From: a virus | Direction: 5' to 3' (one strand) | Length of the DNA: 33,752 bases | Virus record (IMG/VR): IMGVR_UViG_3300009149_000147 | Span: 1-33,752 of that record | Shown: piece by piece, positions 4,614 through 30,721 of the stretch | Layout of the letters: each line of letters starts with the position of its first letter | How positions within the stretch are numbered: the first letter of the stretch is position 1 | Translations under genes and position numbers: made by a program | The notes under the pieces: generated by a model | What the model was told of the DNA's origin: nothing | The model's database searches: none | What the model saw: only the letters and a program-made list of their open reading frames with translations

Positions 4614-4621
4614 TATAAATA
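4614..4621 (-). promoter_or_regulatory. Candidate late promoter box TATTTATA
   Basis: TATTTATA on the minus strand ends 13 bases before the ATG at 4600, in the context GATATTTATAATAAA. It falls in the short gap directly after the TGA of the giant gene, one of ten similarly placed boxes in the window. Confidence 0.5.
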
Positions 4622-7600
4622 TCAATTAATTGTAAAAGTTTGGATGCTTCGGTAAACTTGTAATGCTTTTGTGACTTCTTGTTCAACTATTTTTTTGTCC
4701 TGTTCGGTCATCGTTGTATACACATTATCAGGTTGTTGTACTGGATAACTTAGAATGTATTGTTTGGCTATTGATTGGTCAGTTGTAAGTCCGGACTTAA
4801 TATCTGATTCTAAACTAGCAAGGATGTTTTTTATTCTCAAAAATGCAAATTCTATAAAACTATCGAATGTTGTAAAACTTACAACTGGTAAATTATTTTC
4901 TGTTCCTCTTTTCACACAATAAAACTTACTATTTACAAAATTACTAAAAGAAGGACCATAGTTTTCTTTTAGATTTATTGTTGAGTAATTATTTTCGAAA
5001 CCTGTTATTTTAGAACTATTTCCCGTATCCATATATATAAAACTGAACAGTATACTAGTGTAGAGTTGGAAACTTTGATTTGTTTTTGGACCTACGTTTA
5101 ATTTGGTTAGTACATTAACGATTGTATCAAATAACTCCTTAGTTGTTTTAGATGTTGGAGTAGGAATCTCAATCGCAGTGTATTGTGAATATCTAGGATT
5201 CAAATTAGTTTGACAATCTTGTGATTTTGTAAGAGTTTCTTGTGCTTGTAAATTAGCTATAACGTTATTTTTTTGGAATAGTATATTATCGGAACCTTCT
5301 CTTAATTTTTGTTCTCTTTCTTGGATCTTAGTATTAATTGTCGATAATATCTTAACATTTAATGTTTGTATAAAATTGTCGATTCTTGGTAAACTATAGA
5401 ATGGTTGTCTTGTACCTTCAAAATGTGTTTCAAACCCATTTTCACTAACACTATGTGAAACTTTTGTAATCATATAAGGACCTGAGAACATAGGAATGTT
5501 TCTGATATTAAAATACATCATAGGTTGTATTAGGGCGTTACCCATCATATCCACACTACAAGTATAACTTCTATTTTTATATAGGTTATACAACGAAACT
5601 GATTGTGTTGTTGATCGTCTGTTTTTACCTAAATTTGCCATTTGATTTAACATCTCAAGTGATTCAGATGTTGGTTTACCTGGATCTTGAGAAACACTAA
5701 ATGATTTAAATATTTGTTGGTTTTGTCTTGTCATATCAACATTAAAACCAACCACCTTATTAGATTTTCCCCAATCTTGTTTATCAATTTGATTTTCAAT
5801 TAGAGGATTGTCGCTAGCTCTTCTTAAGTCAAACGCATCATCACGATACCTATAATCAATATTATCTTTCATATCTAAATGTTCACTTGGTTTGTTTACA
5901 TAATAACAAAGGAACTTAGGCGAACTATTTCTATAATCAACATTCAAAAATGTTCCAAATAACATATTACCAAATTCTAAACTACCGTCAGGTCTTGGTG
6001 TTGGGTTCTTTTGTGCGTCTTGTACATTATAAAAATTAACATACGCCGGTAACATAAAGTGTTGGAAGTTGTTTTGTACTAATATGGTGGTGACCATATC
6101 TAATAAAGTATTCTTATAATTGGCTCCGTCGATGAGGTCCATAATTTCAAAAATGTCAACCAATACTTTATCTCCAACATTTCGACTAGCTCTATCTACC
6201 AATAATACGTCTTCAAATAATGTTTTACTTTCAAAATCAAAACCTGCAATCCAACTATCATTAAGAGCTTTAAACGTTTCCCATAGTTCGGTTCTTGTTT
6301 GTTCGGTAAAACCAGCTTCTAAGTCGGCTCTATTTTGTGAATTATCTTCTTCAACAAACACATTAGGTAATTGTTTTCTTACCGCTGGTAACATAACATT
6401 TATAACGTTATTAATATAGTTGTCTGATTCTATAATATAGTCATCCATTAAACTATAAAAACTCGTGTAATTTAAATTAGGGTTAGTCAATTTTTGGGTT
6501 GCATATATCTTAATCAACGGGGCAAATTCTTGGACGTTCTTTTCGTTAAATAAAACATTTAGATCAACAAAGAAGTCTGTTATATAAGAACCACTATCTT
6601 TGTAGGCCAATTCAGGGATACTTGATTTACCAACATAGTATTCGAGAGCTTCCCATGATTTCGGGTTTTGTTGTTTAGATTGAGCTAAAGTAACACCACC
6701 ACCTTGTGTTGGTAATGATCCTTGAAAATATGGTCCGTATATAATTGGGTCCTCAATAAATCTAGTTGAGAACGTATAGAACAACCTTTTGTCAAAGTCT
6801 GATGGATTACCGTATTTGAACACCACATCATAATTCATAAATGATGTTAATATATTTTGGAATGTTTCATTTTGATTGGTTATCAGGCTTGAAAGTTTTG
6901 TTTCTGGTGATGTACCAGTTGGGACTTTCGCTTTAAACAATTGTCTCGCTAAGGTTTGGAAGTTTTTAAATGTCTGATCACTAACTTCATTTGCGTTGGT
7001 TTCAGTTTCAGTTGTATTTAAGTTACTTGCGGTTTGTGATGATGGTAAGGTATCAATAAAATCGTAAATTGATCTACTGAAATTTAAAAACTCAGACTCA
7101 AAATAATCTAATGTTTTGGTATTAAACGTTGTAAATAATTCTTGGAAATCTGTATAATCATTTTTATCTCCGCTTATAATGAAGTTTTGTTGATCCTTTT
7201 GTTCATTAAGTATTTTCTTAAGATATGTTTCAGGATCATTTTTAATTACTTTCGAATTGTCAAACCATCCGTATTGAGGTGCATTCCAAAATAATCTGAC
7301 AGAACCATTAAACATCGCTTCGTTACCTGAAAGTTCGGTACGCATAACACCATTCTTAAATGCTTCATCTTTTGTTTGATTTATATTGGTACCGAAAGAC
7401 GGCATTACATAACAAAAACTTGGTTCCGTAGATGATGAAACAACAACAGACCATGGAGACACTCTCATCGTTCTTGCAGGATTTGATGGGTCAAAACCTG
7501 GTGTTTCATAAATGGTTGAGTTTGTCGTATTCATCATTATTAAATTTCCACTATCCAAGTTGTTTTGGATTGAGGATGATGGAATACCTTGTATAAAACT

Positions 7601-10600
7601 ATTTTGGACGACGAACGCTGATGTTGTTGGTGTTTGACCTGTACCAATAATATAAAGACCAACACCACCTGTTGTTCCTGATATCTGACTTTGTATTGTA
7701 ACATTCCCATTTAAAAGAGGACCATTAATTATGGATCCATTAACTAACACATTACCATCAATACTATTGATTTGTAATGGTGGGTTAAGTGCGATAAAAT
7801 TTGATGTAAAAGCAGAAACGTTGTTAACTTTATACAAACCGTTTGAGTTTGTATCTCCACTAATTTGATTTACCACTGTTAATGGATATGGAAATGAAGA
7901 TCCCGTCAATATTAAACCATTCGATATTGACGCTAAACTAACGTTTGATAATTGAGCAAAACTTCCGATCGTAAAATCGAACGATGGTATCGTCGAAACA
8001 AATGTTGGTGTTGTGGTATAAACACCTGCACCTCCCGCAGTTCCTGAAACTTGACCAGTTACAACCAAGTTAACACCTACAGATGGTATTGTTATGGTAG
8101 TACCTGTTTGAATTAAGTTATTAGTAATTGAATTTACAGTGATGGTTGTACCATTACCACTACAACTACCGGTAACTTCAAATGCTGTGGTATTACCACT
8201 AATTTCTTGTACCGTACAATTACCTCCCGTTTGAGTTTTACCGCTAAACAATTTTAAACCTTGTAAGAAGACATTAAAGTCATCAACTAACTGAGGATAA
8301 AACCCTGTGTTGATATCGGTAAATGGTTGTGTTCCTGTTGTTGTATCTAAAACTAAATTTCTTGGTGTTCCATCAATTACTAAGTCGTAATTTTTGGTTG
8401 CCGCGGAATTTGCAGGATCCCAATTTTCTAAATAATTAAAGTCTTTCCAAACACTATCAAGGTAATCTACACCGGTGTCTCTATATGTTTTATATCTATT
8501 CCAAATTGATCCGTATTTTAATATCCAAGCATAAGGTAACTTATGAACCGCCCCGAATTTTTTCATCGTCGCCAAAATGTAACTCAAATCAGTTGTGGAT
8601 TCACCATTTTTGGTAACATATTTTTCTCTTAAGGTTGCTAAAGGTAAACTATTCAAGAATAGGTACGACGCAGTTTTATACGGATATGGATCGTTTTGTT
8701 TGTATCTAAAATTAAATACACCCTGTTGTACCGCATTAATAAAATACGGTGTATTCAACATCGATGTAGTTTGTGTTTCGGTTAAGTGATTTGTATAACC
8801 AGTATATTTTAAATTACCTTCGGTAACTAATTGGTTTTTATATGTTCTTGTATTATAAAAAGTTTTTAAGTTTGTAGTATCAGGAGTTACTGATAAGTTT
8901 TCAAAGTTAAAATAAGTGTAGGGTCTCTTCGTAGTTTCGTTATCATCGTTTTCGAAATTGGTTACCGTCTTATGAGTGTCATTATATTCCAAAACGTCTT
9001 TGGTATCAAAGGCTTCGTTTGCATTATTTAGACTTTTACCATTTGCCAAATTATCTCTATCCCATTTTAAATTTGTAATTGGGTAAACATCGGTAAAGTC
9101 AAAAGTATTACTACTAGATGATGAGGTTAAGTATTTCTCTAAGTTCGTAAGGTTTCTTGGGTTAGATAATGAAACATTTGGTTGTGATTTTGTAGAACTT
9201 AAGATGTCAGAATTATATACAACATTTGGGTTTTCTACGTCATTTCTAATATATGGTGTCACGAATGTACCTTTAATAAAAGTTTGCCAACTATCTCCTT
9301 GTCCTTGATTAGATATGTGTCTTAAGAATGGTAAATAATTATTACTATCTAAAAGATATTCTTTAATTTTTTTTGTTAGGAATGGATTATCTGCACCCAA
9401 ACTTTTTATTACGTTTACAGCTTCATCATCACCTTCGGCTTCATATATGGATAAATCATAACCAGATGTTCTGTTGAATTTACTATAATATGAATTCAAC
9501 ATGAGTCTTTCATATATTTCAAAAAAGTATTTTGATTCTTCTTTGTTTTGGAATACTTCGTTTGTTACTGGGAACTCAATCGCATTTAATGTTGCTCTTG
9601 ATGGTTGGTTATCTAAATCATTAAATTCTGCACCAACCTTATCATCAGTTTTTGTACGTTCTGTATATCCTTTAATGAATTGTTCTACAAACTCCACCTC
9701 AGGCCAAACTTCAGGACTATAAGCCCTATATGATGACGCAACATTTTGTGCTCCAGGATAAATTAATTCAAATTTTTCTTTCCCATCATCACCTACAGTT
9801 TCTTGGATAACTTGAGGCCAAGGATATATTGGTTCATTATTTTGTGTTGAGGATTTTATATCGACGCTTGGTGCTGTTGTTTGATTACCAAATATTGCGG
9901 CTCGTCTATAATCATTTTCTCTTTGTTCCCAAGCCTTCTTGTGAACATCATCTAACAATCTCAAAAATGCTTCACCCTGACAATAAAATACCGCCAAAAT
10001 ATTTCTAACCGAAGGAACAAACCCAAGACCTCCACTACCTCTTGCATTAAACTTTTCCGCCAAACTTGTTGTGATTTGTTGTTCTATTTTGGTTCTTAAT
10101 GTTGCCGCTTGTTTAGACATTCCGTCTGTTATTTCCATAAAAGATTTTAGTCCTTCGAAGTAATTGAATGTTGAGTTATTGGCAATAAAGGTAGTTTGTA
10201 AAGTAGTTATGAAGTTGTTATAAGCTATATCAACTTTTGTCTGTGCAGCAGGTGGTGTTCCAACTGGTGATAACTGTCCTTTTGGCGAATTCTCTTGAGC
10301 CTGAAACGTTTTATTAAAATCAACTTGATCTGTGTTTACCGAAACTCTAAAGGTTCCTGTTGTGATGTTAAATGGAATTTGTGTTTGTTCGGTAATGTTA
10401 CCGATAGTATAACTACCACCAACACCAAAAACCTTATTTTCATTTAGTCGAGCATTATATTCTTTTATAATTCCATCTAATTCAGTAAGAGCAGTTTCCC
10501 TTTGTTCGGGCGAATACTTTTTAAGGAAGTCATAAACCTTTTGACCACTCTTGAGTATTATTGGGTTTTTAATATCCATATAGGTATTAAACCATGATGT

Positions 10601-11671: not shown

Positions 11672-11984
11672 AGTAGAAGTAGTAATTGTCTAATGAATTT
11701 TTATAATCTTGTAATGAAGCTACTAACGGAAATGGAATAGTCAATACAGCACCATCAGGTATTGAGAATTCATCACCTGTATATTGGGGATTTGCTTGTA
11801 AAATTAACCAACCAAAGTATGGGGTTCCATAAAATTGTTGTGATGTTTTATCCAATCGTGATTGACCAACTTTATAAATAAAGTTTTTATCTGAAGTTTT
11901 AGTTGGTAACGCAACACCAGGTACAACAGTCTGTTGTCCGTTAAGTAAAAAGTCCGTATATCTATTCCAATATTGTAATGCCAT
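11661..11984 (-). CDS. gp53-like baseplate wedge protein with LysM-like domain
   Basis: A 107-residue protein whose core (YKVGQSRLDKTSQQFYGTPYFGWLILQANP, in two pieces, then FSIPDGAVLTIPFP) is a LysM-like fold: a 'Y-K-V' strand, a helix with the 'YG-x-P-x-x-xW-x-I-l-x-A-N' signature, and a closing 'I-P-x-G-x-x-L-x-I-P' strand. T4 gp53 (196 aa) carries such a domain and joins baseplate wedges; small LysM proteins sit at the hub of other contractile tails. It starts one base after the 1695-residue gene and overlaps the start of the giant by 11 bases, so the three are one operon. Calling it gp53-like rather than a generic LysM baseplate protein is inference. Confidence 0.75.
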   Translation of the reverse strand: MALQYWNRYTDFLLNGQQTVVPGVALPTKTSDKNFIYKVGQSRLDKTSQQFYGTPYFGWLILQANPQYTGDEFSIPDGAVLTIPFPLVASLQDYKNSLDNYYFYYGR

Positions 11985-11985
11985 T

Positions 11986-17085: not shown

Positions 17086-17093
17086 TATAAATA
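17086..17093 (-). promoter_or_regulatory. Candidate late promoter box TATTTATA
   Basis: TATTTATA on the minus strand ends 12 bases before the ATG at 17073, in the context CACCTATTTATAAAATAAAAC. It sits in the 41-base gap after the tape-measure gene. Confidence 0.5.
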
Positions 17094-18960: not shown

Positions 18961-18968
18961 CATAAATA
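18961..18968 (-). promoter_or_regulatory. Candidate late promoter box TATTTATG
   Basis: TATTTATG on the minus strand ends 13 bases before the tape-measure ATG at 18947, in the context AAATATTTATGTTAAAAGG. The last base differs from the common box. It overlaps the end of the 57-residue ORF by a few bases. Confidence 0.4.
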
Positions 18969-18969: not shown

Positions 18970-19143
18970 TTACTTATTAGTTTTGGTTTCCTCAACGTGT
19001 TTTTGGATTAAATATTTACGGACATAAGTTGGCATATTCATAAACTCAGAGTATTGAGTTCTGAATAATCTAGAAAAATAATAAAACTCGTCTAATAAAA
19101 TAGCTTTATACTGATAAGAAAGGCCGAAAAAATTCCACCCCAA
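18970..19143 (-). CDS. Small tail-assembly protein overlapping the gp26-like gene (possible +1 frameshift product)
   Basis: A 57-residue frame, too short for a long-ORF list, runs from a TTG at 19143 to TAA at 18970. It overlaps the last 38 bases of the gp26-like gene in the +1 frame. The sequence reads GWNFFGLSYQYKAILLDEF, then YSEFMNMPTYVRKYLIQKHVEE; the 'MP-x-x-xRK-x-xI' helix resembles the small chaperone genes that accompany gp26-family proteins in other T4-like phages. Two TAG codons lie just upstream in this frame, so the only ordinary start is TTG. Alternatively ribosomes reach it from the gp26-like gene by a +1 slip at TTT TTT CGG C (19124-19132). It sits between the chaperone and the tape measure, as G/GT-type pairs do. 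I judge it real; how it is initiated is open. Confidence 0.7.
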   Translation of the reverse strand: MGWNFFGLSYQYKAILLDEFYYFSRLFRTQYSEFMNMPTYVRKYLIQKHVEETKTNK

Positions 19144-19876: not shown

Positions 19877-19900
19877 AAACTATCTTTTATAATTAAAAAT

Positions 19901-19933
19901 AAAAAAAGACCGTAACTAGTAAAGTATACGGTC
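19901..19933 (-). terminator. Rho-independent terminator after the tail tube gene
   Basis: On the minus strand GACCGTA pairs with TACGGTC, extended by ACT/AGT past a one-base bulge, with a 5-base loop, and is followed by seven T residues. It lies about 26 bases after the tail tube stop, so tube mRNA can be made in excess of the genes that follow, as its copy number requires. Confidence 0.9.
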
Positions 19934-19958
19934 TAATATAATTTGTATGTAATTTTTC

Positions 19959-20447
19959 TTAGTAAACCAAAATACAACGGTCCATTCTCATGTTTGTTGA
20001 TATTTTCGCAATACCATCACTTGAATAAGATAAAGATCCTCCATCATATCCTGTTAAGTATGTACCTTCTAAAATCCATTTCTCAACAACAACTCCTGTT
20101 GGATCTAACATCTCAAGGTCAACGTTCTTTTTGTAACCTGCAGCATAACCCATACGTCCTGTAACTGACTCAGCACACAATCTAATCCATTCCATAACCG
20201 CTTGTGAAGCAGAAGGACCAATCGGGTCACGGAAAGTAACAGGAAGTTCTTGCCATGTAAATCTACCTGCAACATATGTTGAGGTGTTTAGGAATTGGAT
20301 CTCTGTTGAACCAATTTGTAGTTTCGGTCTAGAGGTCGTCTCAACGTACCACTCATTAATACCAAGTGATGATGGAAATCTTAAAATCCATCGGTTCTCC
20401 CTTTTAGGTTCGTAAGGGATCGGCATTTTCATTAACAAATCAGCCAT
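19959..20447 (-). CDS. 19: Tail tube protein (gp19)
   Basis: A 162-residue protein, essentially the length of T4 gp19 (163 aa). It starts with a helix-poor leader (MADLLMKMPIPYEPKRENRW) and continues as a beta-rich tube fold: WYVETTSRPKL, then TWQELPVTFRDPIGPSASQAV with the 'P-v-t-f-r-D' strand and following helix VMEWIRLCAES characteristic of the family, and a final strand set ending DRCILVY. It polymerises as stacked hexamers to form the inner tail tube, inside the sheath encoded nearby. It has its own late box 33 bases upstream and its own strong terminator, which fits a highly expressed structural gene. Confidence 0.9.
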   Translation of the reverse strand: MADLLMKMPIPYEPKRENRWILRFPSSLGINEWYVETTSRPKLQIGSTEIQFLNTSTYVAGRFTWQELPVTFRDPIGPSASQAVMEWIRLCAESVTGRMGYAAGYKKNVDLEMLDPTGVVVEKWILEGTYLTGYDGGSLSYSSDGIAKISTNMRMDRCILVY

Positions 20448-20480
20448 ATCTTATTTTTTTCTTTTGTCTTTTATTTTTAT

Positions 20481-20488
20481 TATAAATA
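20481..20488 (-). promoter_or_regulatory. Candidate late promoter box TATTTATA before tail tube
   Basis: TATTTATA on the minus strand ends 33 bases before the ATG at 20447, in the context CACTATTTATAATAAAAAT. The 111-base gap between the HAD gene and the tube gene otherwise holds only a weak 7-bp AT hairpin without a T run. Confidence 0.5.
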
Positions 20489-20558
20489 GTGTGAAATAAA
20501 AAATTTTCTATTTACTTCAAATATTTTTCAAGTTATACATTTACTAGGCTAAACTAAA

Positions 20559-21386
20559 TCAATATTTAGTCTTCTTTCCTCCTCCTGTATGATATATTTC
20601 TAATCCAGTTTTATCATCAAAATGTTTCTTCATTGCTTGCACATTTCTTAAATCATCATCTGAAAAACCAATATAAGGAACAAAATAATTACTTATCTTA
20701 TTTTTCATAAACGCTTTTTCCTGTAAACGTCTTGAAAGGTTATTAACATATGTCATAAATTCTTTCATTGCATCAACTTTAAGTTGTTCAGGGTTGGCAG
20801 CTGATCCTTGTCCGAAACTTACAGGGTGATAACGGTTCATATCTAAATAAGATCTTAAAAGTTCTTCATCAGATAAATCATCTTCATCAGCTAATTCTCT
20901 ATATTTTTTTAGATTTTTAATTAATTCTTTTTGGTTTAGACCGTGTTTGTTTTTCTTAATTAGGTTATAAACCGCATTTTTAAGAACTGAAGGAGTGTGT
21001 CCCCTTGCTGTGATGATCGAAAAAACAGATCCATTATTGACCGCCTCAACAAAATCGTCCCAAGCAGGTCCTGTAGGTGCTTTCATAGCATCTTTTAAAA
21101 AACCTTCATCACCTGGTACATTAAAATCTCTAAACGGGTTTTCATCAAAACCTACTATGGTGTGTCCCTCATATTCGAAAGGTTCTTTACCGATTTCAGT
21201 TCTGTATTCCGCAAAATCTTCTGTTGACATACCAACAACCTTACCTTTATCATCTTTGGTATAGATCTTTGTTGGCATATACATTAGGTTATCATCCCAG
21301 TCAAAAGCATAATACTTCATCGTAGGTTTCATTTGATCGTGAATGATCTCTGAAATAATCTGTTTGACAACTTTTTTGTAATTCAT
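20559..21386 (-). CDS. HAD-superfamily phosphatase between sheath and tube genes
   Basis: A 275-residue protein from the ATG at 21386; a GTG five codons earlier (21401) is also open but would fall on the promoter box. HAD motifs are in order: motif I DWDDN with Asp29 and Asp31 (nucleophile and general acid/base), motif II IITARG with Thr126, a plausible motif III lysine at Lys203, and motif IV GFSDDD with Asp243-Asp245. The long stretch between motifs I and II suggests a cap. The substrate is unknown; phage HAD proteins include 3'-phosphatases and nucleotide phosphatases. A 22-residue leader precedes the core and contains QIISEI, similar to IxE prohead-protease sites. The position between two tail structural genes is odd for an enzyme. 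It has its own TATTTATA box. Confidence 0.8.
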   Translation of the reverse strand: MNYKKVVKQIISEIIHDQMKPTMKYYAFDWDDNLMYMPTKIYTKDDKGKVVGMSTEDFAEYRTEIGKEPFEYEGHTIVGFDENPFRDFNVPGDEGFLKDAMKAPTGPAWDDFVEAVNNGSVFSIITARGHTPSVLKNAVYNLIKKNKHGLNQKELIKNLKKYRELADEDDLSDEELLRSYLDMNRYHPVSFGQGSAANPEQLKVDAMKEFMTYVNNLSRRLQEKAFMKNKISNYFVPYIGFSDDDLRNVQAMKKHFDDKTGLEIYHTGGGKKTKY

Positions 21387-21401
21387 ATAAATAAATATCA
21401 C

Positions 21402-21409
21402 TATAAATA
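21402..21409 (-). promoter_or_regulatory. Candidate late promoter box TATTTATA
   Basis: TATTTATA on the minus strand ends 15 bases before the ATG at 21386. It directly continues the T run of the sheath terminator, so stop and restart signals are fused. Confidence 0.5.
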
Positions 21410-21438
21410 AAAAAGGGGAAACTTTCGTCTCCCCTTTT
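21409..21438 (-). terminator. Strong terminator after the tail sheath gene
   Basis: On the minus strand AAAAGGGGAGAC pairs with GTTTCCCCTTTT (12 bp, one G-T pair) around a GAAA tetraloop, then six T residues. It lies about 20 bases past the sheath stop. The A run on the other side means it could also stop plus-strand transcription. Confidence 0.92.
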
Positions 21439-21457
21439 CATATGAATATAAACCAAC

Positions 21458-24400
21458 TTATATATTCTCAAACGATGCTCCTGTCGGAGTAATGTAGAAT
21501 GTGATGTCGATGAATTCAAGTGACCTTGTAGGTTTGATGTAAATCTTACCTGTCAATTGGTTTCTGTCAATATCCTCAGGATCTGACGAAACTGTCACAC
21601 GGAAGTCAAATATACCACGATCTCTTCTGATCGCATCTAAGATTGGGTTAACCGCATTTAAGAAGTCTTGTCTAACTTGTGCGTCGTTTTGTTCAAACAA
21701 TAGTCTTACAGATACTGCTGAAATCAATTTACGAGTTTGTAATAACAATCTTCTTACGTTGATTCTGTCAAGAGCAGACTCTCTAACTTGTAGAGTTTTG
21801 TTACCCCAAATTACCGTACCTACATCTGAGAAGGTTGCAATTGGGTTAATTCTACCTACATAAAGAATGTCTCTATCTTCTTGAGTCAACTTCTTACGAG
21901 CTTTAACACAGTTAACAATACCACGAGTGTAACCAGCCGCTGCGAACCATGGGAACGCAATGTTATCTGTCAACGCCAAGTTTCTTGTTACCTCAGCCGT
22001 CGGTGGGATATAGATTTGAGTATTGTTTACACTATCTCTTGTTAATACCCATGGGTAATAAGTTGCCGTGTAGTTAGAGTCAATTCCTGTATTTTCTAAG
22101 TTATCAACCGCTTCAGTTGGGTAGATTAAGAAATCTTGACCATTTAAGTTAGGAACATACATATCCACGTCAGGTGTTGTACACACGTAAAGTGAATCCG
22201 CTCTGTTAAACTCGATCATCTCAACCGCCGCTTCTACAAGGTTACTGTTATTTACATAATCAATACCAGGTGTAACAAATACGTTGATGTTTGTTGCTTC
22301 AGGGTTTGCAAATGTTTGTTGACCTAACAAGTATGCGTAGTAGTCAGAGTTCGCAAAGTTTTGAGTTCCGTCACCAAGAGAAATCTCTTTGAATGCTCCC
22401 CATCCTGTGGCGTTAGGGTATCTTGTAGAAGGACAAGCCCCTCTTAAGAATCCACTTCTACCAATTTGGAATTGATCTGTATTTGTTCTAAACTCTCTAT
22501 AGATGTCCCAACCATCGAAACCACCTTGTACTAAGAATGTGAACTTACGAGCGAACAATCTGTAGTAAGCATTTGTTGGTGATTCAGGATCTGTAATGAA
22601 CGGTGAGTTTCCACAGATAAATCTTGGGTCTCCCGATGTTGAGAACTCAGGACCGATTGTTAGACCACTTGCATTTACATCCATGTGGAAACCAGCAGAT
22701 CTGTAATTAAATGGTAAACCATCGATATCACAAGAGTTGATTGGATTTCTCTTACCAACATATTCGAAGTAAGCAGGGTCCCAACCTAAACTATTGGATA
22801 TACCTAAGTAAGTTCTTCTTACATTATCTCCTGGGCTAACCAAAGCGTTATCATTACCTGAAGATAAACCAAACGGTGGGTTGTAAATAACTTCACCAGG
22901 GAAGTCATACTTACCTTTGATAATCGGGAATGGTGAACTAGCACCTGCATAATTTCTAAAGTTGAATCCGTTGAATCCGCAAGGTAAAGCATCTATCGGT
23001 GCATCCTCACTCATTTCAACCATTACATACTTAGAGTTTAACAAGTATTCTCCGTCTAATGTACCAATTTTGTTACCGATAAAGTTGTTTTGTCCTGGAT
23101 CCATAGTACAGTTTGTAAATTTCTCAAGTACTACAGGATTTGCATCTGTATCAAAATAATCACGGATCAATACGTCAAACGTTAAATTGTTGTATGTTTG
23201 ATTGATAATTGAAACTTTAATTAATGTGTTTGCTCCGTCACCATCAGAAACTGTGTAGAATCTAAACAAGTCATAAACTTTGTTACCTCTTAATTCAGAA
23301 ACAACGTATGGTGATGCTGGTGTTTGCCATTTGTCTAAGTACCAACCAATTGAGTCAGGATCTCCGCTTTGTGCTGAGTCTAAAGCAATTAGGTTAGGGT
23401 TAAGACCTTTGATATAACCTTTTCTCCAAGAGTAGTTCAAGAATGATTGGAATACTTCCTCAGCAAAAACAGGAACCTCGATTCGTGGTTTTTGGAAGTT
23501 AGTAATACCAAATACTTTAGTGAAATATTCGGGATCGTTTTGTGTAAGTGACGTCTCAAAGTTGTAAGCCGTACCGAACTTATCAACCACATTTACTGCG
23601 AATGTTAAATAAGGGTTTTTAAGAACTCCAGCGTATTGACCTGTCATATCTAAAGTCACATCTGATGTCCCTGTTACTGAGTAAGTTGGGTTAGTATCAG
23701 TTGTGTAAGTAGAAATACCTCTTGATCTTAAAGTACCAACAACAACATTATCATAATCAACATAAGAAGTACCTGTGTAATAGTAGATCTTACCAACGAT
23801 AGTATCTGAATAACAGTCGATGTTAACTGGTGTAGGAGTTGGTGTGGGTGATGTGAAAGGTGATGGTGTAATACAAGGATTTACAAATGAAGGTGTAGGA
23901 GTTGGTGATGCCGTAACCCCTGGTGTTGGTGTAGGGTTAGGGAAGTAAGCTGTCAATCCTGATACATAAGTAAAGAATGAGAAACCTGAATAATTTGTAT
24001 TACCATTATTGTTAAATAATGCGTAGTACCAAGAGTCATTAAATGCTGAATTCAAATCAGTATCGTCGAAAGAAACTGAAGGAACCTCAAATACGTTAGT
24101 TTCAGCACTAAATCCTGAACCACTTAATACATCATAATCGTCAGTCGCAATAGAACCGAAGTAAGCGATTTGTTCGTCTTCTGCGGTATATGGGTTAGTA
24201 CTTGTAATTACGTTAAATACTAAGTTTTGGATTTGGTCGTTAAGAGTTGAGGTGTCACCATTAAACTCTTCATATTGAGATAATAATAGATCCTCGATTT
24301 CTGACGGGAATGAAGTTAAATACTCGATTGTTCCTGAGTCATTTGTACAACCTGTAAATTGTACCGTAAATGTTAATTCTTTTGGTGTTACACAAGTAGT

Positions 24401-24808
24401 TACACAAGTTGTAAAATCTGTTACAGAACTCAAACACCATACATCGATAGTGGTTGGGTCTACGTTTGCAACCGTTGTGATTGACCAAGATGGTCCTGCA
24501 TCATACCCTGATAGACCAAGAATTCTAGTTACAAACAATTGGTTAGATTGTTGTAAATATGCTTTTGCGATATACGCGGCTTCGTACTTTGGAATCTGTG
24601 TATTAACAAATTTTTCAGGTGAAGTTCCCCCAAATACGGTTTGGAATTCATTAAAACTTGTAATAAAGATTGGTTCAAAAGCCGGTCCTATCAGAGTCTC
24701 TCCAGCAATACCCAAAGTTGTTACCCCAACACTTTGTGCTACAAAGCTTAAGTCAACCTCTGAAGTATAGACACCTGGTGAAACAAAAACCTTACTGTTT
24801 GTTGCCAT
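21458..24808 (-). CDS. 18: Tail sheath protein (gp18), enlarged
   Basis: A 1116-residue contractile sheath subunit. The ATG at 24808 (MATNSKVFVSPGVYTSEVD) is chosen over one 16 codons upstream because the 'SPGVY-x-x-E' start is the family norm and the late box lies before it. The N-terminal domain includes IAGETLIGPAFEP and FGGTSPEKF. The C-terminal domain is typical: GIVNCVKARKKLTQEDRDILY, INPIATFSDVGTVIWGNKTL, RRLLLQTRKLISAVS, and a closing LEFIDITFYITPTGASFENI. T4 gp18 has 659 residues, so about 450 extra residues sit in the middle, including a Pro/Thr-rich linker at residues about 288-328 with PTPTP repeats. These extra parts probably face outward on the tail surface. A strong terminator follows, matching a high-copy protein. 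Confidence 0.93.
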   Translation of the reverse strand: MATNSKVFVSPGVYTSEVDLSFVAQSVGVTTLGIAGETLIGPAFEPIFITSFNEFQTVFGGTSPEKFVNTQIPKYEAAYIAKAYLQQSNQLFVTRILGLSGYDAGPSWSITTVANVDPTTIDVWCLSSVTDFTTCVTTCVTPKELTFTVQFTGCTNDSGTIEYLTSFPSEIEDLLLSQYEEFNGDTSTLNDQIQNLVFNVITSTNPYTAEDEQIAYFGSIATDDYDVLSGSGFSAETNVFEVPSVSFDDTDLNSAFNDSWYYALFNNNGNTNYSGFSFFTYVSGLTAYFPNPTPTPGVTASPTPTPSFVNPCITPSPFTSPTPTPTPVNIDCYSDTIVGKIYYYTGTSYVDYDNVVVGTLRSRGISTYTTDTNPTYSVTGTSDVTLDMTGQYAGVLKNPYLTFAVNVVDKFGTAYNFETSLTQNDPEYFTKVFGITNFQKPRIEVPVFAEEVFQSFLNYSWRKGYIKGLNPNLIALDSAQSGDPDSIGWYLDKWQTPASPYVVSELRGNKVYDLFRFYTVSDGDGANTLIKVSIINQTYNNLTFDVLIRDYFDTDANPVVLEKFTNCTMDPGQNNFIGNKIGTLDGEYLLNSKYVMVEMSEDAPIDALPCGFNGFNFRNYAGASSPFPIIKGKYDFPGEVIYNPPFGLSSGNDNALVSPGDNVRRTYLGISNSLGWDPAYFEYVGKRNPINSCDIDGLPFNYRSAGFHMDVNASGLTIGPEFSTSGDPRFICGNSPFITDPESPTNAYYRLFARKFTFLVQGGFDGWDIYREFRTNTDQFQIGRSGFLRGACPSTRYPNATGWGAFKEISLGDGTQNFANSDYYAYLLGQQTFANPEATNINVFVTPGIDYVNNSNLVEAAVEMIEFNRADSLYVCTTPDVDMYVPNLNGQDFLIYPTEAVDNLENTGIDSNYTATYYPWVLTRDSVNNTQIYIPPTAEVTRNLALTDNIAFPWFAAAGYTRGIVNCVKARKKLTQEDRDILYVGRINPIATFSDVGTVIWGNKTLQVRESALDRINVRRLLLQTRKLISAVSVRLLFEQNDAQVRQDFLNAVNPILDAIRRDRGIFDFRVTVSSDPEDIDRNQLTGKIYIKPTRSLEFIDITFYITPTGASFENI
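23829..23907 (-). repeat. Short direct repeat coding for PTPTP linker in the sheath
   Basis: The 16-base sequence GGTGTAGGAGTTGGTG (plus-strand reading) occurs at 23829-23844 and 23892-23907, with looser GGTG units between and around. It encodes the Pro-Thr repeats of the sheath insertion and may expand or shrink by slippage. Confidence 0.7.
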
Positions 24809-24840
24809 ACTAAAAATTTCTTTTAATTTATTTATTTTCC

Positions 24841-24848
24841 TATAAATA
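24841..24848 (-). promoter_or_regulatory. 18: Candidate late promoter box TATTTATA before tail sheath
   Basis: TATTTATA on the minus strand ends 32 bases before the sheath ATG at 24808, in the context AGTATTTATAGGAAAAT. It lies 36 bases from a box of the same sequence reading the opposite way, so the region is a divergent promoter. Confidence 0.55.
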
Positions 24849-24884
24849 CTTCTCAAAACACGAAAAACTTTACATTATAGAAAG

Positions 24885-24892
24885 TATTTATA
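24885..24892 (+). promoter_or_regulatory. Candidate late promoter box TATTTATA before the regulator gene
   Basis: TATTTATA on the plus strand ends 37 bases before the ATG at 24930, in the context AAAGTATTTATATTTTGG. It reads away from the sheath box. Confidence 0.4.
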
Positions 24893-24907
24893 TTTTGGTA
24901 AGATTTT

Positions 24908-24926
24908 ATTCTGCCTTAATTCTGCC
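24908..24926 (+). repeat. Direct repeat ATTCTGCC x2, possible operator
   Basis: ATTCTGCC occurs at 24908-24915 and 24919-24926, start points 11 bases apart, about one helical turn. It ends three bases before the start of a ribbon-helix-helix gene. Such spacing suits dimers binding side by side on one DNA face, so autoregulation is a reasonable guess. Confidence 0.45.
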
Positions 24927-24929
24927 CCT

Positions 24930-25100
24930 ATGTCTAACGATAATAAAAAGATAAAAAACCTTAAGATTGACATCGAAGTTCACGGTGTCTTAAAGAAATA
25001 TTGCGATAAACGTGGTATTAAAATGTATAGGTTTTTAGAGAATCTAATTATGGAAAAATGTCAAGAAAAAAAGGACATTTACGGGGAACCGTTAAAGTAA
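24930..25100 (+). CDS. Small ribbon-helix-helix (Arc/MetJ-like) DNA-binding protein
   Basis: A 56-residue plus-strand gene, too short for a long-ORF list, flanked by minus-strand tail genes. The layout fits ribbon-helix-helix repressors: a basic leader (KKIKN), a short strand LKIDIEV, helix A from HGVLKKYCDKRG, a turn, and helix B IKMYRFLENLIMEKCQE, matching the common pattern 'V-x-x-E-V-x-x-x-L-K-x-Y-x-x-x-x-G-I-x-M-x-x-F-x-E-x-L-I'. Members form dimers that insert the paired strand into the major groove. It begins three bases after a direct repeat and shares a divergent promoter region with the sheath gene, so it could control itself, the sheath or both. Its 3' end overlaps the convergent gp15-like gene by 9 bases. 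Confidence 0.72.
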   Translation: MSNDNKKIKNLKIDIEVHGVLKKYCDKRGIKMYRFLENLIMEKCQEKKDIYGEPLK

Positions 25101-26129
25101 TTTTTGTGAAAAAGAAAGAGATGATTCTGTAGACTCATCAATTTTAACAATATCAATTCTTAAATTATCATCAGTATTGATTTGTATTTCTGTAACATCA
25201 TCACCATAATAATTGTCATTAATATAAACAGAGTAAGACTCAACGTTTGGTGACTGCTCAAAATAGAGATTACAAGTATAACTAAAGAAGTACTCTTGAG
25301 TTAACTCTCCTATTGGGTAATTTAGAGTGATTGTTTCTAATTGAACTGGTTCTTGTCTTTTTTGTGGTCGTTTTACAGGTCGTTGATCCACTTCATACAT
25401 CTGAAAAGTTCGTGAGATTGCGGGACTAACCTCAAATTCATTTTCGTCCATTAAGAATCCCATCATGGTAAACTCATATTTCTGAATATAATATTTTCGT
25501 TTTTCCAAATCTAAAGAAGACTCGTCAGTAAACCCATCATTAATAATCGGAATGTAATGACCTTTAATGACTTGGTATGCTTGTCTTGAAGCGAAGGTTT
25601 CCATAACTCTTTGGTTAAGAGTATTTGCTTCCCTCATTCTATTACAAATAATTGCAACGGTATATTTCAAATCAATTGGAACTGGTTGAGGGATTTTATA
25701 AATGTCGGCACCAACTCTATTACCATCCCACGTTGGGACTTCCATATAATAATACATTCGTCTATTAGGAATGTTATACATTACAGCGGGGTTGTTTCCA
25801 TATTTAACTTCAGGATTTCTAATTACCGTAATAAATGGGGGTTCGACATTCTTGTCAATATTTTGAAAGTCCCAAGTTTCAACAAACTGAGACCAGTTTT
25901 GAGTTGTTATTAAGATATCAACTACAGGAATTTTCTTACCCTCAGAAGTTATACTAAACTTTTCTTTAACAAAATCTAAGAACCCACCATCAAGATCGGC
26001 ATGAAGTAATGACTTAGGTAGGTAAGTTCCATCCTTAGTAATCATATCCTTTATCTGTTCCCTTCTCGGTAAAAGAGTTTTGGGATACGTTAAAGGTAAT
26101 GTTGGTTTAACTTGTTTTGGTAATGCCAT
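25092..26129 (-). CDS. gp15-like tail completion / sheath stabiliser protein
   Basis: A 345-residue protein. The N-terminal third includes LTYPKTLLPRREQIKDMI and PVVDILITTQNW. The central part matches the proximal tail protein gp15 pattern: PPFITVIRNPEV, YNIPNRRMYYYMEVPTW, and IPQPVPIDLKYTVAIICNRM followed by a helix TLNQRVMETFASRQ, comparable to T4 gp15 'P-x-x-x-x-YELSI-x-TR-x-x-d-x-x-Q-i-x-E-x-i-l-x-x-F'. The C-terminus has an extra beta-rich piece after residue 255 beyond the T4 length (272 aa). In T4, gp15 caps the tail tube and sheath and joins tail to head. The start overlaps the gp14-like stop (TAATG). Adjacent gp14 and the nearby sheath gene support the call. Confidence 0.62.
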   Translation of the reverse strand: MALPKQVKPTLPLTYPKTLLPRREQIKDMITKDGTYLPKSLLHADLDGGFLDFVKEKFSITSEGKKIPVVDILITTQNWSQFVETWDFQNIDKNVEPPFITVIRNPEVKYGNNPAVMYNIPNRRMYYYMEVPTWDGNRVGADIYKIPQPVPIDLKYTVAIICNRMREANTLNQRVMETFASRQAYQVIKGHYIPIINDGFTDESSLDLEKRKYYIQKYEFTMMGFLMDENEFEVSPAISRTFQMYEVDQRPVKRPQKRQEPVQLETITLNYPIGELTQEYFFSYTCNLYFEQSPNVESYSVYINDNYYGDDVTEIQINTDDNLRIDIVKIDESTESSLSFSQKLL

Positions 26130-26641
26130 TATAATCCTCTAAATTCGTTTGGTCCGACAGGTGCCGCAATTATTGTTCTATAAAAAGGTTTGAACCCTTT
26201 ATAAGTATGTTTTAAATCCGATACCACACGTCCATCATTAACAACCGTATAATACCTAACAAAGTTTTCACTATCATAATATCCTATGTAATCACCAAAA
26301 TCGATATCAATATCAAGATCGTCTAAGGTTTTAATGTAAACTGAAATGGTAATATTTCCAGGTTCGACTTGATCAATACGAGTAGACCCTAGCATTTTGT
26401 TTTCGGGTGATGCGATACCAACATAAGCATTAAACTCAACAGGTGGTAAAAACTTAATGCCATCCTCAACGACCTCACCATAGACATCGTCAGTTTTGAT
26501 TTTATTTTTATCCACTCTGTATAGTACACAAGTGAAGTTCATATCACCTATCAACCACTCTTGACCCATACTTACTTCAAGGTTAAAATCGTTGTCCCCA
26601 AAAAACTTTCCCAATCTACTTACAGGAACACTACTCTTCAT
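26129..26641 (-). CDS. gp14-like neck protein
   Basis: A 170-residue protein with DDVYGEVVEDGIKFLPPVEF, then an all-beta stretch (NITISVYIKTLDDLDIDIDF, GDYIGYYDSENFVRYYTVV). The 'l-Y-G-E' followed by beta-rich domains and a 'GDYI-x-y...y-Y-x-v' strand is what neck/connector proteins of the T4 gp14 type show. T4 gp14 (256 aa) and gp13 form the collar that seals the filled head. This copy is shorter. It is transcribed from a TATTTATC box 15 bases upstream and is coupled to the gp15-like gene by a one-base stop/start overlap. The family assignment is from pattern and neighbourhood rather than a full alignment. Confidence 0.55.
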   Translation of the reverse strand: MKSSVPVSRLGKFFGDNDFNLEVSMGQEWLIGDMNFTCVLYRVDKNKIKTDDVYGEVVEDGIKFLPPVEFNAYVGIASPENKMLGSTRIDQVEPGNITISVYIKTLDDLDIDIDFGDYIGYYDSENFVRYYTVVNDGRVVSDLKHTYKGFKPFYRTIIAAPVGPNEFRGL

Positions 26642-26654
26642 AATAGTCTATTTC

Positions 26655-26683
26655 TTGATAAATATTCTTTTTATTGTTATTTT
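26655..26683 (+). promoter_or_regulatory. Possible sigma70-type promoter for the helicase
   Basis: TTGATA (26655-26660), 17-base spacer, TATTTT (26678-26683). The predicted start leaves under 10 bases before the TTG at 26699. It overlaps the divergent gp14 late box on the other strand. Confidence 0.4.
26657..26664 (-). promoter_or_regulatory. Candidate late promoter box TATTTATC before gp14
   Basis: TATTTATC on the minus strand ends 15 bases before the ATG at 26641, in the context AGAATATTTATCAAGAAATAG. The final base is C rather than A. Confidence 0.45.
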
Positions 26684-26698
26684 TATTAAAAACATATT

Positions 26699-28468
26699 TT
26701 GGATAATACTAAAACACTTATAGAACATAAGGCTTTGGATTTGCTTGACTCGTATAGTGGTGCAAATAATTATATATTATACCTGAAAAACAAGAAGGAA
26801 GTCTCAAGTAAGTTTTACCCAACAAGAAATCAGGCAGAATATATTACAACTTATTATAACACCACACCAAAGGTGGCTCGTAAATGGGTTGAGTTAGACA
26901 CATACTTCGCTAAAAAGTTTGCAGAAGAAAGATATCTACTACAAGTTCCCGAACAAATATATATCGAAAAACTTTTGGTTGAAAAAGAAAAATCTTATCA
27001 CGTTTGGGGTAAGTTCTTTGAAAAAGATAAATTAAGTGAGTTTTGGGTTCCCAAGTCAGCACTTATTAAAACACATAAAGTTGAAAAGGTTGAAATTGAT
27101 TATTCAAAATATTCTCACCGACCGCCATTAGAACACCAAAAAATTGCTGTAGAAAAACTTGCAGGATCAAAAAGGTTTATATTAGCCGATGATATGGGTC
27201 TTGGTAAGACAACATCAACAATTCTTGCCGCTTTAGAGACAGGAGCAAAAAAGATTTTAATTGTTTGTCCGGCTTCTCTTAAGATCAACTGGCAGCGTGA
27301 GATTGAGAATTACTCGGATCGACCCGTGTTTATTGCCGAGGGTAAAAAATTTTCTACTGAACACGACTTTGTGATTGTGAATTATGATATTCTTAAAAAC
27401 TTCCACGACTCAGACCCAAAGAAAAAAGATGAGTCCCTATTATCACAAAGTGGGTTTGAGTTAGTTATATTAGACGAGGCTCACATGATCTCAAACGTCC
27501 AAGCACAAAGAACAAAGATTATTAATAGTTTTGCAAAGAAAGTTGATAGAGTTTGGTTGTTGACAGGAACACCTATGACTTCACGACCTATGAACTACTA
27601 CAACTTGCTAAACCTCATCGAAAGTCCCGTTGCTCAAAATTGGAAGGCGTACGCCATCCGTTATTGTCAAGGATTTCAGTTTACGGCAGGTAAAAGAAAG
27701 GTTTGGAATGTTATGGGTGCGTCAAACCTTGAGGAATTAAGAGACAGAACATCAAAACAAATTCTTCGTAGATTAAAAGAAGAGGTGTTAGATCTACCTG
27801 ATAAAATTATTACTCCTGTTTATTTGAGATTAAAATCAAAAGAATATGAAGATTTAATGGGTGAGTATTATGAATGGTATGATAAAAACCCCGATGAGTC
27901 ATCATCTCTTACGGTTCAGTTCTCTAAACTGATGAAAGTTAGAAAGGTAATAGCAAATGAAAAAACAAAACAAACAATCGACTTTGCCGAAAACATTTTA
28001 GAACAAGGTAAGAAAGTAATTATCTTCACGAACTTTACCGACACACTCCAAACAATCTACCAACACTTTGGTAAACAAGCGGTATATCTCGATGGTAGTT
28101 GTTCTAACTCAATGCGTCAACAGTCGGTTGACTCGTTTCAAAATGACGATAAGATCCGAGTATTTGTTGGGAACCTAAAGGCTGCTGGTGTTGGTTTAAC
28201 ATTAACCGCCGCTGAGGTTGTGATTATGAATGACCTATCATTTGTGCCTGCAGAACACGCACAAGCTGAAGACCGAGCATATCGTTATGGTCAAAAATCA
28301 AACGTATTGGTTTACTATCCCCTATTCGAAAATACCATCGAGGGCGCCATATATGACATACTAAACAAAAAGAAAAGGATCATAAACACGGTTATGGGAG
28401 ATGGTATTATTGAGAACCCTGGTGACGTGGCAGAGGAAATCCTTAAGCTAATCAATAAAAGGAGGTAA
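26699..28468 (+). CDS. SNF2-family helicase (UvsW/HARP-like)
   Basis: A 589-residue superfamily 2 helicase. Motifs: Walker A DDMGLGKTTS (Lys170), motif Ia IVCPASLKINWQRE, motif II DEAH at 259-262, motif III LLTGTP at 287-292, motif IV-like IIFTNF, motif V GVGLTLTAA, and motif VI QAEDRAYRYGQ at 522-532. DEAH plus 'R-x-x-R-x-GQ' is the SNF2 hallmark, close to SMARCAL1/HARP annealing helicases. T4 UvsW (503 aa) remodels forks and R-loops; this protein may fill that role with a different N-terminal domain (residues 1-135). The frame has no ATG near its beginning: the first usable start is TTG at 26699. The gene is on the plus strand, diverging from gp14. Confidence 0.9.
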   Translation: MDNTKTLIEHKALDLLDSYSGANNYILYLKNKKEVSSKFYPTRNQAEYITTYYNTTPKVARKWVELDTYFAKKFAEERYLLQVPEQIYIEKLLVEKEKSYHVWGKFFEKDKLSEFWVPKSALIKTHKVEKVEIDYSKYSHRPPLEHQKIAVEKLAGSKRFILADDMGLGKTTSTILAALETGAKKILIVCPASLKINWQREIENYSDRPVFIAEGKKFSTEHDFVIVNYDILKNFHDSDPKKKDESLLSQSGFELVILDEAHMISNVQAQRTKIINSFAKKVDRVWLLTGTPMTSRPMNYYNLLNLIESPVAQNWKAYAIRYCQGFQFTAGKRKVWNVMGASNLEELRDRTSKQILRRLKEEVLDLPDKIITPVYLRLKSKEYEDLMGEYYEWYDKNPDESSSLTVQFSKLMKVRKVIANEKTKQTIDFAENILEQGKKVIIFTNFTDTLQTIYQHFGKQAVYLDGSCSNSMRQQSVDSFQNDDKIRVFVGNLKAAGVGLTLTAAEVVIMNDLSFVPAEHAQAEDRAYRYGQKSNVLVYYPLFENTIEGAIYDILNKKKRIINTVMGDGIIENPGDVAEEILKLINKRR

Positions 28469-28485
28469 TCTTTTTATGATTGGAA

Positions 28486-28493
28486 TATTTATC
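28486..28493 (+). promoter_or_regulatory. Possible late promoter box TATTTATC before the SOD fusion
   Basis: TATTTATC ends only 4 bases before the ATG at 28498, closer than the other boxes. If active, transcription would start within or after the start codon region, so a leaderless message or a chance match are both possible. Confidence 0.25.
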
Positions 28494-28497
28494 AAAG

Positions 28498-30693
28498 ATG
28501 AAACTTTCAATCAAATACGAAAATCAAGATATTAAAGAACACAAAGACTTTGTGAGTGAGTTCATAAAACTCCTACAAAAAGAATATCCCTTAAAACAAG
28601 ATCTAAAAATTATCTTTATGGATGGTAAGAGGGGGGAGATGTCTACAGGTAGTAGACGTGGTGATAATCTTATTAAAGTTTTAGCAAAAGGTAGATTAAA
28701 TAGGGATATCATGAGGACTCTCGCACATGAGTGGGTTCATGAATATCAAATGACAATTTTAAATAGAAAACCTGGACCAAACATCGGTGGAAAAAATGAA
28801 GACGAAGCGAACGCATTTGCAGGTCGTTTGGTTAAGATGTTTGAAAAAGAACATCCTGAATTGGAAAAAATCATGTATGAAAGTAAAAGTATAAAAAGTC
28901 GGATCAATCTTTTATCCGAGCAAATACTTTTGACTGAGAAAAAAACTATTAAGGAAAGTTTGTTGGTTGAAATGAAAAAAATTGGTATTGAAAAACTACC
29001 GTACTCATATTCCGCATTACAAAGATTTATCGACTCTAGAACTATGAACATTCATTACAACAAACACTATAAGGGTTATGTTGATAAACTGAATAAGGCG
29101 ATTAAAGATAAAAAAGGTGATATGGATTTAGAAGAAATTATTAAATCCATTAGTAAGTTTGACGATAAAGTTAGAAATAATGCGGGGGGTGCTTTTAACC
29201 ACGCTTTGTTTTGGAAAATGTTATCACCAAAAAAACAATTACCAAAAGGTGAGATCTTAAAAAAGATTAGAGAAGATTTTGGTAACATCAAAAAACTAAA
29301 AGATGAATTTAACAAAGCGGCTCAGGATCGTTTTGGTTCAGGTTGGGCTTGGTTGTATTTGGCAAAAGATGGTAAATTAAAAATTATGTCCACACCTAAT
29401 CAGGACAATCCCCTAATGAATATTGTTAAGGGGGGTGGTTATCCATTACTTGGTCTTGATGTTTGGGAACACGCTTATTATCTGAAATACCAAAATAAAA
29501 GAGACGAATATATTTCTAAGTTTTGGGACGTGGTAAATTGGGAATTTGTTAATGACTTATTAATTAGTAGGACTTCTAAGAAAAAACTTAACGAGTCAAA
29601 TGAAATAAATGAAATAGCACTTAAACGAGATTCCAAAATAGATTATTTATGTCGACAATCAAAATCAAAAGAATCACCTTATTGTCAATTAAAAAATTTC
29701 AGAGATGGTTTAGAAGATGATTATTTGGTTACCGAATTAGAGCGTTCTATTTTTATATTAGACCAATTCTTTGCGATGAAAAATGTTGGTACGTTTCCCG
29801 TAATCATAAAATTAGCCCTCCAAGACACAAATAGAACTGTAAACTTTTTAGAGTTGGTTTCAGACTTTATTGTAGATAAAAAATATGATGACGACCAAGT
29901 AAAAAAAATATTAACCAAACAAAGATATTCCACCTCAATACCTAAAGATATTGAGGGGTTATTGGCTTATGCAAGACAAAAAGAACACAGTAAATATGAA
30001 GATAGATTTTCAGGTGAGTACTTTGAGAAAAAACCGACAAAATTACAATTGGATTATAAATGTTCTGATGACGCGAAAGAAACATTAATAGATGTGTTAA
30101 AACAAGTTCATTCTGGCACAGAGACTTTGGATTACACATTCTTTCAGATAACATCTTGTTTATCTAAATCATTTAAAAAAGGTAGTTATTATATAAAGGC
30201 CGATTTAATTACTAAACAAGATTTAAAAGATGAAAACGGTAAAGTTATATTTCCGAGTGGATCATTCTTTGAGGTTAAAAAAATGGACCCATTCATAGAT
30301 AGTTATTTATCAGAGTTCTTTTCCATTTTTAAACAAAGCTCACTATCAAGTGAAAAACCAATATATCTAAATCTATACAACGAATTAATTGATAAAATAT
30401 TTGTTTGGTTAAACACTAAACCTTCGGCTCAGGAATATCTCGATAAAGTTAGAAGTCAAATGTCGGGTATAATCTATGAGGGCGATTTAATTGTCCCTAT
30501 TAAATATATTGATTTATATTGGTCCAACAAAGGTCAAAGAGGTTGTGATGAAAAAAGACTATCAATAAGGTTTAGAATAAAACCCGAATATAGTAAAATT
30601 GATGGTTTCTTCTTTAGAGATAAAGATACTTTAGAATCAGTCACTTTGAATGTAAAATCAAAGGACAGAGAAAAGATCGTTTGTACTAACTAA
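28498..30693 (+). CDS. Metalloprotease-like / Fe-Mn superoxide dismutase / unknown-domain fusion protein
   Basis: A 731-residue protein from the ATG at 28498; a TTG six codons earlier is also open. Residues 1-135 look like a zincin: HEWVH at 77-81 and a downstream NEDEANAFAGR with Glu103 as possible third ligand. Residues 136-160 form a linker with LSE, LTE and LVE. Residues about 165-357 are a complete Fe/Mn superoxide dismutase: LPYSYSALQRFIDSRTMNIH with His186, GGAFNHALFW with His235, GSGWAWL, NQDNPL with Gln302 as in Mn-type enzymes, and LDVWEHAYYLKYQN with Asp321 and His325, then the closing NWEF. Residues 358-731 are unrecognised and rich in Lys, Asp and aromatic residues. The dismutase should convert superoxide to peroxide and oxygen. 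It is plus strand, between the helicase and a neck gene. No signal peptide is seen. Confidence 0.9.
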   Translation: MKLSIKYENQDIKEHKDFVSEFIKLLQKEYPLKQDLKIIFMDGKRGEMSTGSRRGDNLIKVLAKGRLNRDIMRTLAHEWVHEYQMTILNRKPGPNIGGKNEDEANAFAGRLVKMFEKEHPELEKIMYESKSIKSRINLLSEQILLTEKKTIKESLLVEMKKIGIEKLPYSYSALQRFIDSRTMNIHYNKHYKGYVDKLNKAIKDKKGDMDLEEIIKSISKFDDKVRNNAGGAFNHALFWKMLSPKKQLPKGEILKKIREDFGNIKKLKDEFNKAAQDRFGSGWAWLYLAKDGKLKIMSTPNQDNPLMNIVKGGGYPLLGLDVWEHAYYLKYQNKRDEYISKFWDVVNWEFVNDLLISRTSKKKLNESNEINEIALKRDSKIDYLCRQSKSKESPYCQLKNFRDGLEDDYLVTELERSIFILDQFFAMKNVGTFPVIIKLALQDTNRTVNFLELVSDFIVDKKYDDDQVKKILTKQRYSTSIPKDIEGLLAYARQKEHSKYEDRFSGEYFEKKPTKLQLDYKCSDDAKETLIDVLKQVHSGTETLDYTFFQITSCLSKSFKKGSYYIKADLITKQDLKDENGKVIFPSGSFFEVKKMDPFIDSYLSEFFSIFKQSSLSSEKPIYLNLYNELIDKIFVWLNTKPSAQEYLDKVRSQMSGIIYEGDLIVPIKYIDLYWSNKGQRGCDEKRLSIRFRIKPEYSKIDGFFFRDKDTLESVTLNVKSKDREKIVCTN

Positions 30694-30713
30694 CACAAAC
30701 TAATTATTAAAGA

Positions 30714-30721
30714 TATTTATA
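30714..30721 (+). promoter_or_regulatory. Candidate late promoter box TATTTATA before gp13
   Basis: TATTTATA on the plus strand ends 13 bases before the ATG at 30735, in the context AGATATTTATAGAGAAAAAAC. This is the cleanest plus-strand example, showing that the box follows gene direction rather than genome strand. Confidence 0.55.

Follow-up and report, generated by a model that had tools for sequence, protein, structure and literature searches.

A TATTTAT box before virion genes of T4-like phages as a probable late promoter with T4 orientation

The DNA analyzed here, referred to as the window, is the whole 33,752-nucleotide stretch of the viral record IMGVR_UViG_3300009149_000147, and the element in question is the octamer TATTTATA, or its core TATTTAT, which precedes ten genes of this stretch. 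The box is proposed, with a probability of roughly 85%, to be the late promoter of a large clade of T4-like phages on Bacteroidota-type hosts, served by a divergent gp55-type system. It was concentrated just upstream of virion genes in the sense orientation, it was conserved in orthologous leaders with its distance from the ATG kept gene by gene, and a gp55-type sigma was found in relatives of the phage.

The window (33.7 kb) is a fragment of a T4-like contractile phage, with genes assigned by PHROG to tail tube, sheath, baseplate, head-tail adaptor, ssb, UvsX, exonuclease, helicase and polymerase. The closest cultured relative according to UvsX was Flavobacterium phage immuto (44% identity). 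Relatives of the adaptor were encoded on at least 597 stretches of the viral collection, and no match for this protein was found among the named phages. Judging from immuto and from the promoter style described below, the hosts would be of the Bacteroidota or flavobacterial type. T4 late transcription is a standard textbook case, and its box has been seen with little change across T4 relatives. A literature search, with subscription papers outside its scope, found no relevant paper on the present motif as a phage promoter.

Distribution and anatomy of the box

Ten TATTTAT boxes, following gene direction on both strands, had been listed in an earlier sequence-only reading of the window, and the place, strand and direction of all ten were verified (Table 1). 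A sense TATTTAT was present within 50 nucleotides (nt) upstream of 10 of the 22 window genes, against an expectation of 0.78 (standard deviation 0.85) from 5000 first-order Markov simulations of the same upstream regions, in which the maximum was 5. The exact TATTTATA occurred seven times in sense and never in antisense in these regions, and the T4 box TATAAATA was found in sense in 0 of 22. In three large relatives, the rate just upstream of genes was 2.6–3.9 boxes per kb in sense versus 0.6–1.2 per kb in antisense, and 0.05–0.10 per kb within genes on either strand. Furthermore, among 1203 distinct upstream regions, ATATTTAT was counted 338 times in sense and 34 times in antisense. Hence, the orientation count suggested in the sequence-only reading gave a sense-upstream excess far above the simulations, and the equal frequency inside genes or in antisense, named there as contrary evidence, was not found. 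A genome-wide comparison of exact TATTTATA with its reversed control was discarded as uninformative, since ATATTTAT overlaps the true motif.

All ten window boxes recurred in the orthologous leaders, and the gap to the ATG was preserved gene by gene. In the adaptor leader of 80 relatives, TATTTATA was present in 77 and TATTTATT in the other 3, with variable flanks. Virion genes were preceded by the box and replication genes were not; its absence upstream of ssb, uvsX and rnh, already observed in the window, also held in the orthologous leaders, where boxes were likewise missing from the hub gene and from most genes inside operons (gene 26129, 2/52; gene 2629, 1/2). The box preceded 60–68% of the genes having 10–100 nt of same-strand upstream space, versus 3% of those having less than 10 nt. 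The count for the divergent helicase gene at 26699 was ambiguous (18/47 leaders with a box) because its upstream region includes the box of its neighbor.

The profile of 219 non-redundant boxes consisted of a near-invariant TATTTAT, with A or G at the preceding position in most boxes and an A/T-rich stretch downstream; it contained no -35 signal and nothing clearly conserved farther upstream. The sole single change clearly tolerated affected the first T (GATTTAT, 33 sense versus 7 antisense), which corresponds to position -13. When ATG triplets were counted independently of gene calls, an excess was observed at 4–5, 13–15 and about 31–38 nt past TATTTAT, the last of these peaking near 36 nt, and the counts for six control words were flat, with no such peaks. 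The 4–5 nt geometry accounted for 45 of the 219 boxes, and the leaders of the 13–15 nt class had 77–90% A at positions -11 to -7 relative to the ATG.

An mRNA leader element had been offered in the sequence-only reading as the alternative to a promoter. Such an element, UAUUUAUA in the RNA, could act as a translation enhancer, a protein-binding site or a stability element. It would suit the fact that the majority of the boxes lie no more than 20 nt from the ATG; moreover, Shine-Dalgarno-like words were present in 6 of 465 boxed leaders, which leaves room for another signal, and Bacteroidota-type hosts do not use Shine-Dalgarno sequences (PMC6847099). Nevertheless, one leader signal would hardly be expected at three separate spacings, and the tightly packed genes, as well as ssb, uvsX and rnh, need translation and yet are boxless. 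A weak pairing excess around the box was obtained for the adaptor leader alone (z 2.2), but across 115 leaders (z -0.97) and in two further gene sets pairing was not in excess. A hairpin around the box, suggested by visual inspection of adaptor leaders (AGA...TCT, GTGA...TCAC), was also rejected, as it was not above shuffles in the 115 leaders and was negative in other genes. Additionally, Microcystis phage Mel-JY01 carries the identical box 27–33 nt from the ATG, so that the spacing differs while the box is constant, which favors a promoter; Shine-Dalgarno-like words were visible before several of its ATGs. With no general conserved hairpin, three ATG spacings and near absence of the box inside operons, a leader element was considered very improbable.

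Direction relative to the T4 late box

The T4 late promoter TATAAATA, used with gp55, has variants in S-PM2, KVP40, 44RR and Aeh1 (PMC2988020, PMC7892883). Aligned with it in the same direction, TATTTATA differed in the two central bases and in nothing else: the T4 register T-13 A-12 T-11 A-10 A-9 A-8 T-7 A-6 became T A T T T A T A, with the two deep-pocket adenines A-12 and A-8 retained and AA replaced by TT at -10 and -9. T4 late promoters also vary chiefly at -13, the tolerant position of the present box, and share with it the lack of a -35 element and the A/T-rich downstream side (PMC2988020), as well as the form of an 8-bp TATA box standing before virion genes on both strands. The same pipeline recovered TATAAAT for T4 and for P-SSM4.

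The sequence-only reading had noted that the box is the exact reverse complement of TATAAATA and had asked whether it was a reversed T4 late promoter. The first statement is true of the word, and there is good support for a late-promoter-like element upstream of virion genes; the reversal was not sustained. Since TAT is the reverse complement of ATA, a change of the center from AA to TT necessarily turns the T4 word into its own reverse complement, and on sequence grounds the apparent reversal is a coincidence of the outer palindrome TAT...ATA. A truly reversed promoter, in which the sigma reads the opposite strand and transcription leaves away from the gene, would match the exact complementarity of the two words. 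However, the boxes lie mostly between co-directional genes and would then give only antisense RNA, the conserved A-rich side and the ATG spacing peaks lie on the gene side, and two base changes suffice in the same-direction alignment; such a promoter is therefore extremely improbable.

In Rhodothermus phage RM378, the top upstream 8-mer was TTATTTAA(A) (27 sense versus 11 antisense); it has TATTTA in common with the late box and may represent a third form of it.

A gp55-like sigma and the host-type promoters

Inspection of the phage for a gp55-like sigma, another suggestion of the sequence-only reading, led to a factor of this type in relatives and in immuto. The late sigma family phrog_234 matched a protein of about 250 aa in the relatives, and the members within the clade were 71–90% identical to the family reference. 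A search with the profile of this family detected immuto gp118 (E 1.4e-17), gp55 as the sole match in T4, and proteins in Mel-JY01 and LR756508. The profile was required, as tblastn with the sigma against the named phages gave no match; the sigma alone remained below the cut-off in PHROG and Pfam scans (the top Pfam match of one member was Sigma70_r2, E 0.02), and Foldseek alone gave weak sigma matches only. Profile-profile alignment by hhalign with T4/P-SSM4 gp55 reached an E of 6e-6 over 116 columns. Among solved structures, T4 gp55 was also the best match by sequence (E 0.007) and the top structural match (7d7c_F, Z 9.8, 3.5 A, 102 residues) of an AlphaFold model with a predicted local distance difference test score (pLDDT) of 74.7 and a predicted template modeling score (pTM) of 0.44. 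The alignments and the model indicate that the fold of sigma region 2 is related to that of T4 gp55. Unlike T4 gp55, the protein has an extra helical C-terminal part that aligned to sigma4 of two-domain sigmas, and it was therefore filed as gp55-like rather than as gp55 proper.

In the T4 open complex, gp55 holds A-12 in a pocket with Y97 and A-9 in a pocket with N13/H95, and contacts A-8 by T99 (PMC7892883). The equivalent of Y97 was invariant and N13 and T99 were replaced in all of the TT-box phages, which are few sequences; both residues were kept in the cyanophage P-SSM4, whose box is TATAAATA. H95, in the -9 pocket, was rejected as a diagnostic residue, since the AA-box phage P-SSM4 carries F there.

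The box could also be a late promoter read by the host primary sigma or by another phage factor. The Bacteroidota primary promoter, recognized by sigma A, consists of a -33 TTG and a -7 TAnnTTTG, and shares with the box TA at -12/-11 and T at -8 (PMC9723704); as in the box, T and not A stands at the corresponding central position. In addition, the pairing of sigma and box is a predicted one, and a sigma match was missing in some long relatives. However, the late box is a strict heptamer, TATTTAT, and its logo has no -33 TTG partner, and host-type promoters precede the other gene set of the same phages. In immuto, TATTTATA stood ahead of terL, gp20, sheath, tube and tape measure, and 22 host-like promoters (TTG-N-TATnTTTAG / GTTG-N16-22-TATnTTTAGnTAT) were located between 60.9 and 75.0 kb, before small genes. 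Upstream of unboxed clade genes, TTG-N17-22-TAnnTTTG was found 14 times in sense versus once in antisense; in the 465 boxed leaders, TTG-N-TAnnTTTG was found 5 times in sense versus 18 in antisense, so that these leaders do not resemble sigma A promoters. A gp55-type sigma was present in the boxed phages immuto and Mel-JY01 and in the boxed relatives G001 and G004. A host or other factor was hence judged improbable.

In a separate observation on the immuto promoter array, caataATTAAAA followed most of those promoters that were read.

In the proposed gp55-type system, TATTTATA would act as a -10-like element without a -35. A phage sigma of the gp55 kind, encoded elsewhere in the genome, would bind the host RNA polymerase and read the non-template strand in the ordinary direction, holding A-12 and A-8 as in T4 with T in place of A at -10 and -9. 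Transcription would start about 11–13 bases past the first T. The mRNA of the 4–5 nt class would then begin at the start codon, that of the 13–15 nt class would have a leader of about 8–9 nt with the A-run at its start, where it would coincide with the expected transcription start, and that of the 31–38 nt class a leader of about 25–30 nt. The pairing of sigma and box, these start sites and the late timing are inferred; the 4–5 nt class likewise appears to give leaderless late mRNAs. The leaders of the clade would thus be short or missing, unlike the Shine-Dalgarno leaders of T4. In leaderless promoters of the mycobacterial kind, the -10 element is fixed a few bases before the ATG. The present box resembles them in its short fixed distance to the ATG, with a minimum of 4 nt, and differs from them in being a phage box, with this geometry as one of three spacing classes only and with predicted start sites.

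With the A-run of the 13–15 nt leaders, slippage would be possible and could produce 5' poly(A) leaders. Many of the leaderless-class genes of G001, G003 and G004 share an N-terminal motif resembling MK-II-SE-QY on otherwise different proteins, which might be a capsid-targeting sequence by analogy with the T4 internal head proteins.

Several observations weigh against the proposed system. The window, being a fragment, has no sigma gene, and no sigma match was obtained in the long relatives G002, G003 and G005, possibly because they are fragments too; conversely, LR756508 has the sigma without a clear TATTTATA box. The changes in the pocket residues rest on few sequences, and the lack of a -35 motif is less expected in view of the sigma4-like part. 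In six records (relatives and immuto), phrog_223, the sliding clamp of T4 type and gp45 homologue, was not found; a divergent or host clamp is possible there, and activation by a clamp in the T4 style would be hypothetical. The T4 spacing would place the start 1–2 nt inside the ATG of the 4–5 nt class; if these mRNAs are translated from that ATG, its position sets an upper bound on the distance from box to start. Finally, leaderless mRNAs amount to only 5.5% in F. psychrophilum (PMC9723704).

A broader scenario, held tentatively and at slightly less than even odds, is that box and sigma changed together throughout the clade, so that TATTTATA replaced TATAAATA as its late promoter. The sigma would carry a region-4-like domain, either acquired or retained, and might not need the T4 sliding clamp, and through the new box a sizeable share of the late mRNAs would be leaderless in hosts where such mRNAs are rare. 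A clade with a flipped box center and a recognizable partner sigma represents a natural specificity-change experiment, directly testable on the cultured phage immuto. It would also allow late genes to be located by a simple rule in many contigs of environmental phages, and could be one origin of leaderless mRNAs in Bacteroidota.

Individual boxes and neighboring genes

Three of the boxes listed in the sequence-only reading required adjustment of their surroundings. The position of the sheath box stood, with the gene start corrected to the ATG at 24808, and thus 33 bases downstream of the box. The box at 28486 was also correctly placed, and its gene start was moved to the ATG at 28498, 5 bases downstream. 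Upstream of the gene starting at 21386, the listed copy at 21402 exists (TATTTATA, 21402-21409), but the copy conserved in relatives is instead that at 21391-21397, 4 bases from the ATG and within the overlapping boxes of TATTTATTTAT (21387-21397).

Table 1. Candidate late-promoter boxes of the window, with distances counted from TATTTAT to the ATG and the share of orthologous leaders carrying the box
Element	Position	Strand	Distance and gene	Orthologous leaders
TATTTATA	4614..4621	-	14 nt to ATG 4600, 74-aa protein	3/3
TATTTATA	17086..17093	-	13 nt to ATG 17073, unannotated 1695-aa protein	3/3
TATTTAT	18962..18968	-	14 nt to ATG 18947, 610-aa protein	1/1
TATTTATA	20481..20488	-	34 nt to ATG 20447, tail tube phrog_4542	7/7, gap mostly 32-35
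TATTTAT	21391..21397	-	4 nt to ATG 21386, 275-aa protein, leaderless geometry	31/33, gap 4 in 25
Additional box-like copies	21387-21393, 21402-21409	-	ahead of the 275-aa gene, ATG 21386	
TATTTATA	24841..24848	-	33 nt to ATG 24808, tail sheath phrog_23	46/46, gaps 31-35
TATTTATA	24885..24892	+	38 nt to ATG 24930, 56-aa Arc-like regulator	45/45, gaps mostly 35-38
TATTTAT	26658..26664	-	16 nt to ATG 26641, 170-aa protein	47/50
TATTTAT	28486..28492	+	5 nt to ATG 28498, 731-aa protein, leaderless geometry	47/52, gap 5 in 43
TATTTATA	30714..30721	+	14 nt to ATG 30735, gp13-like head-tail adaptor	54/54 distinct leaders

The boxes of the sheath and of the Arc-like regulator are divergent. The remaining TATTTAT copies of the window look like background; those at 11873 (-), 17363 (+), 29644 (+) and 30304 (+) are intragenic and that at 24829 (+) is intergenic.

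In many of the adaptor leaders (30690-30735 and orthologues), short inverted repeats flank the box. The tail sheath gene (21458-24808, minus strand) encodes 1116 aa; the C-terminus is the conserved one of sheaths, and a TPTPTP-rich linker lies within a long insert. The 731-aa protein (28498-30693, plus strand) contains both Fe/Mn superoxide dismutase domains at residues 165-353 (C-terminal domain, Pfam E 1e-40) and a HEWVHE metalloprotease-like motif near its N-terminus, and among the 47 boxed orthologues of its gene, 43 have the box at the leaderless distance.

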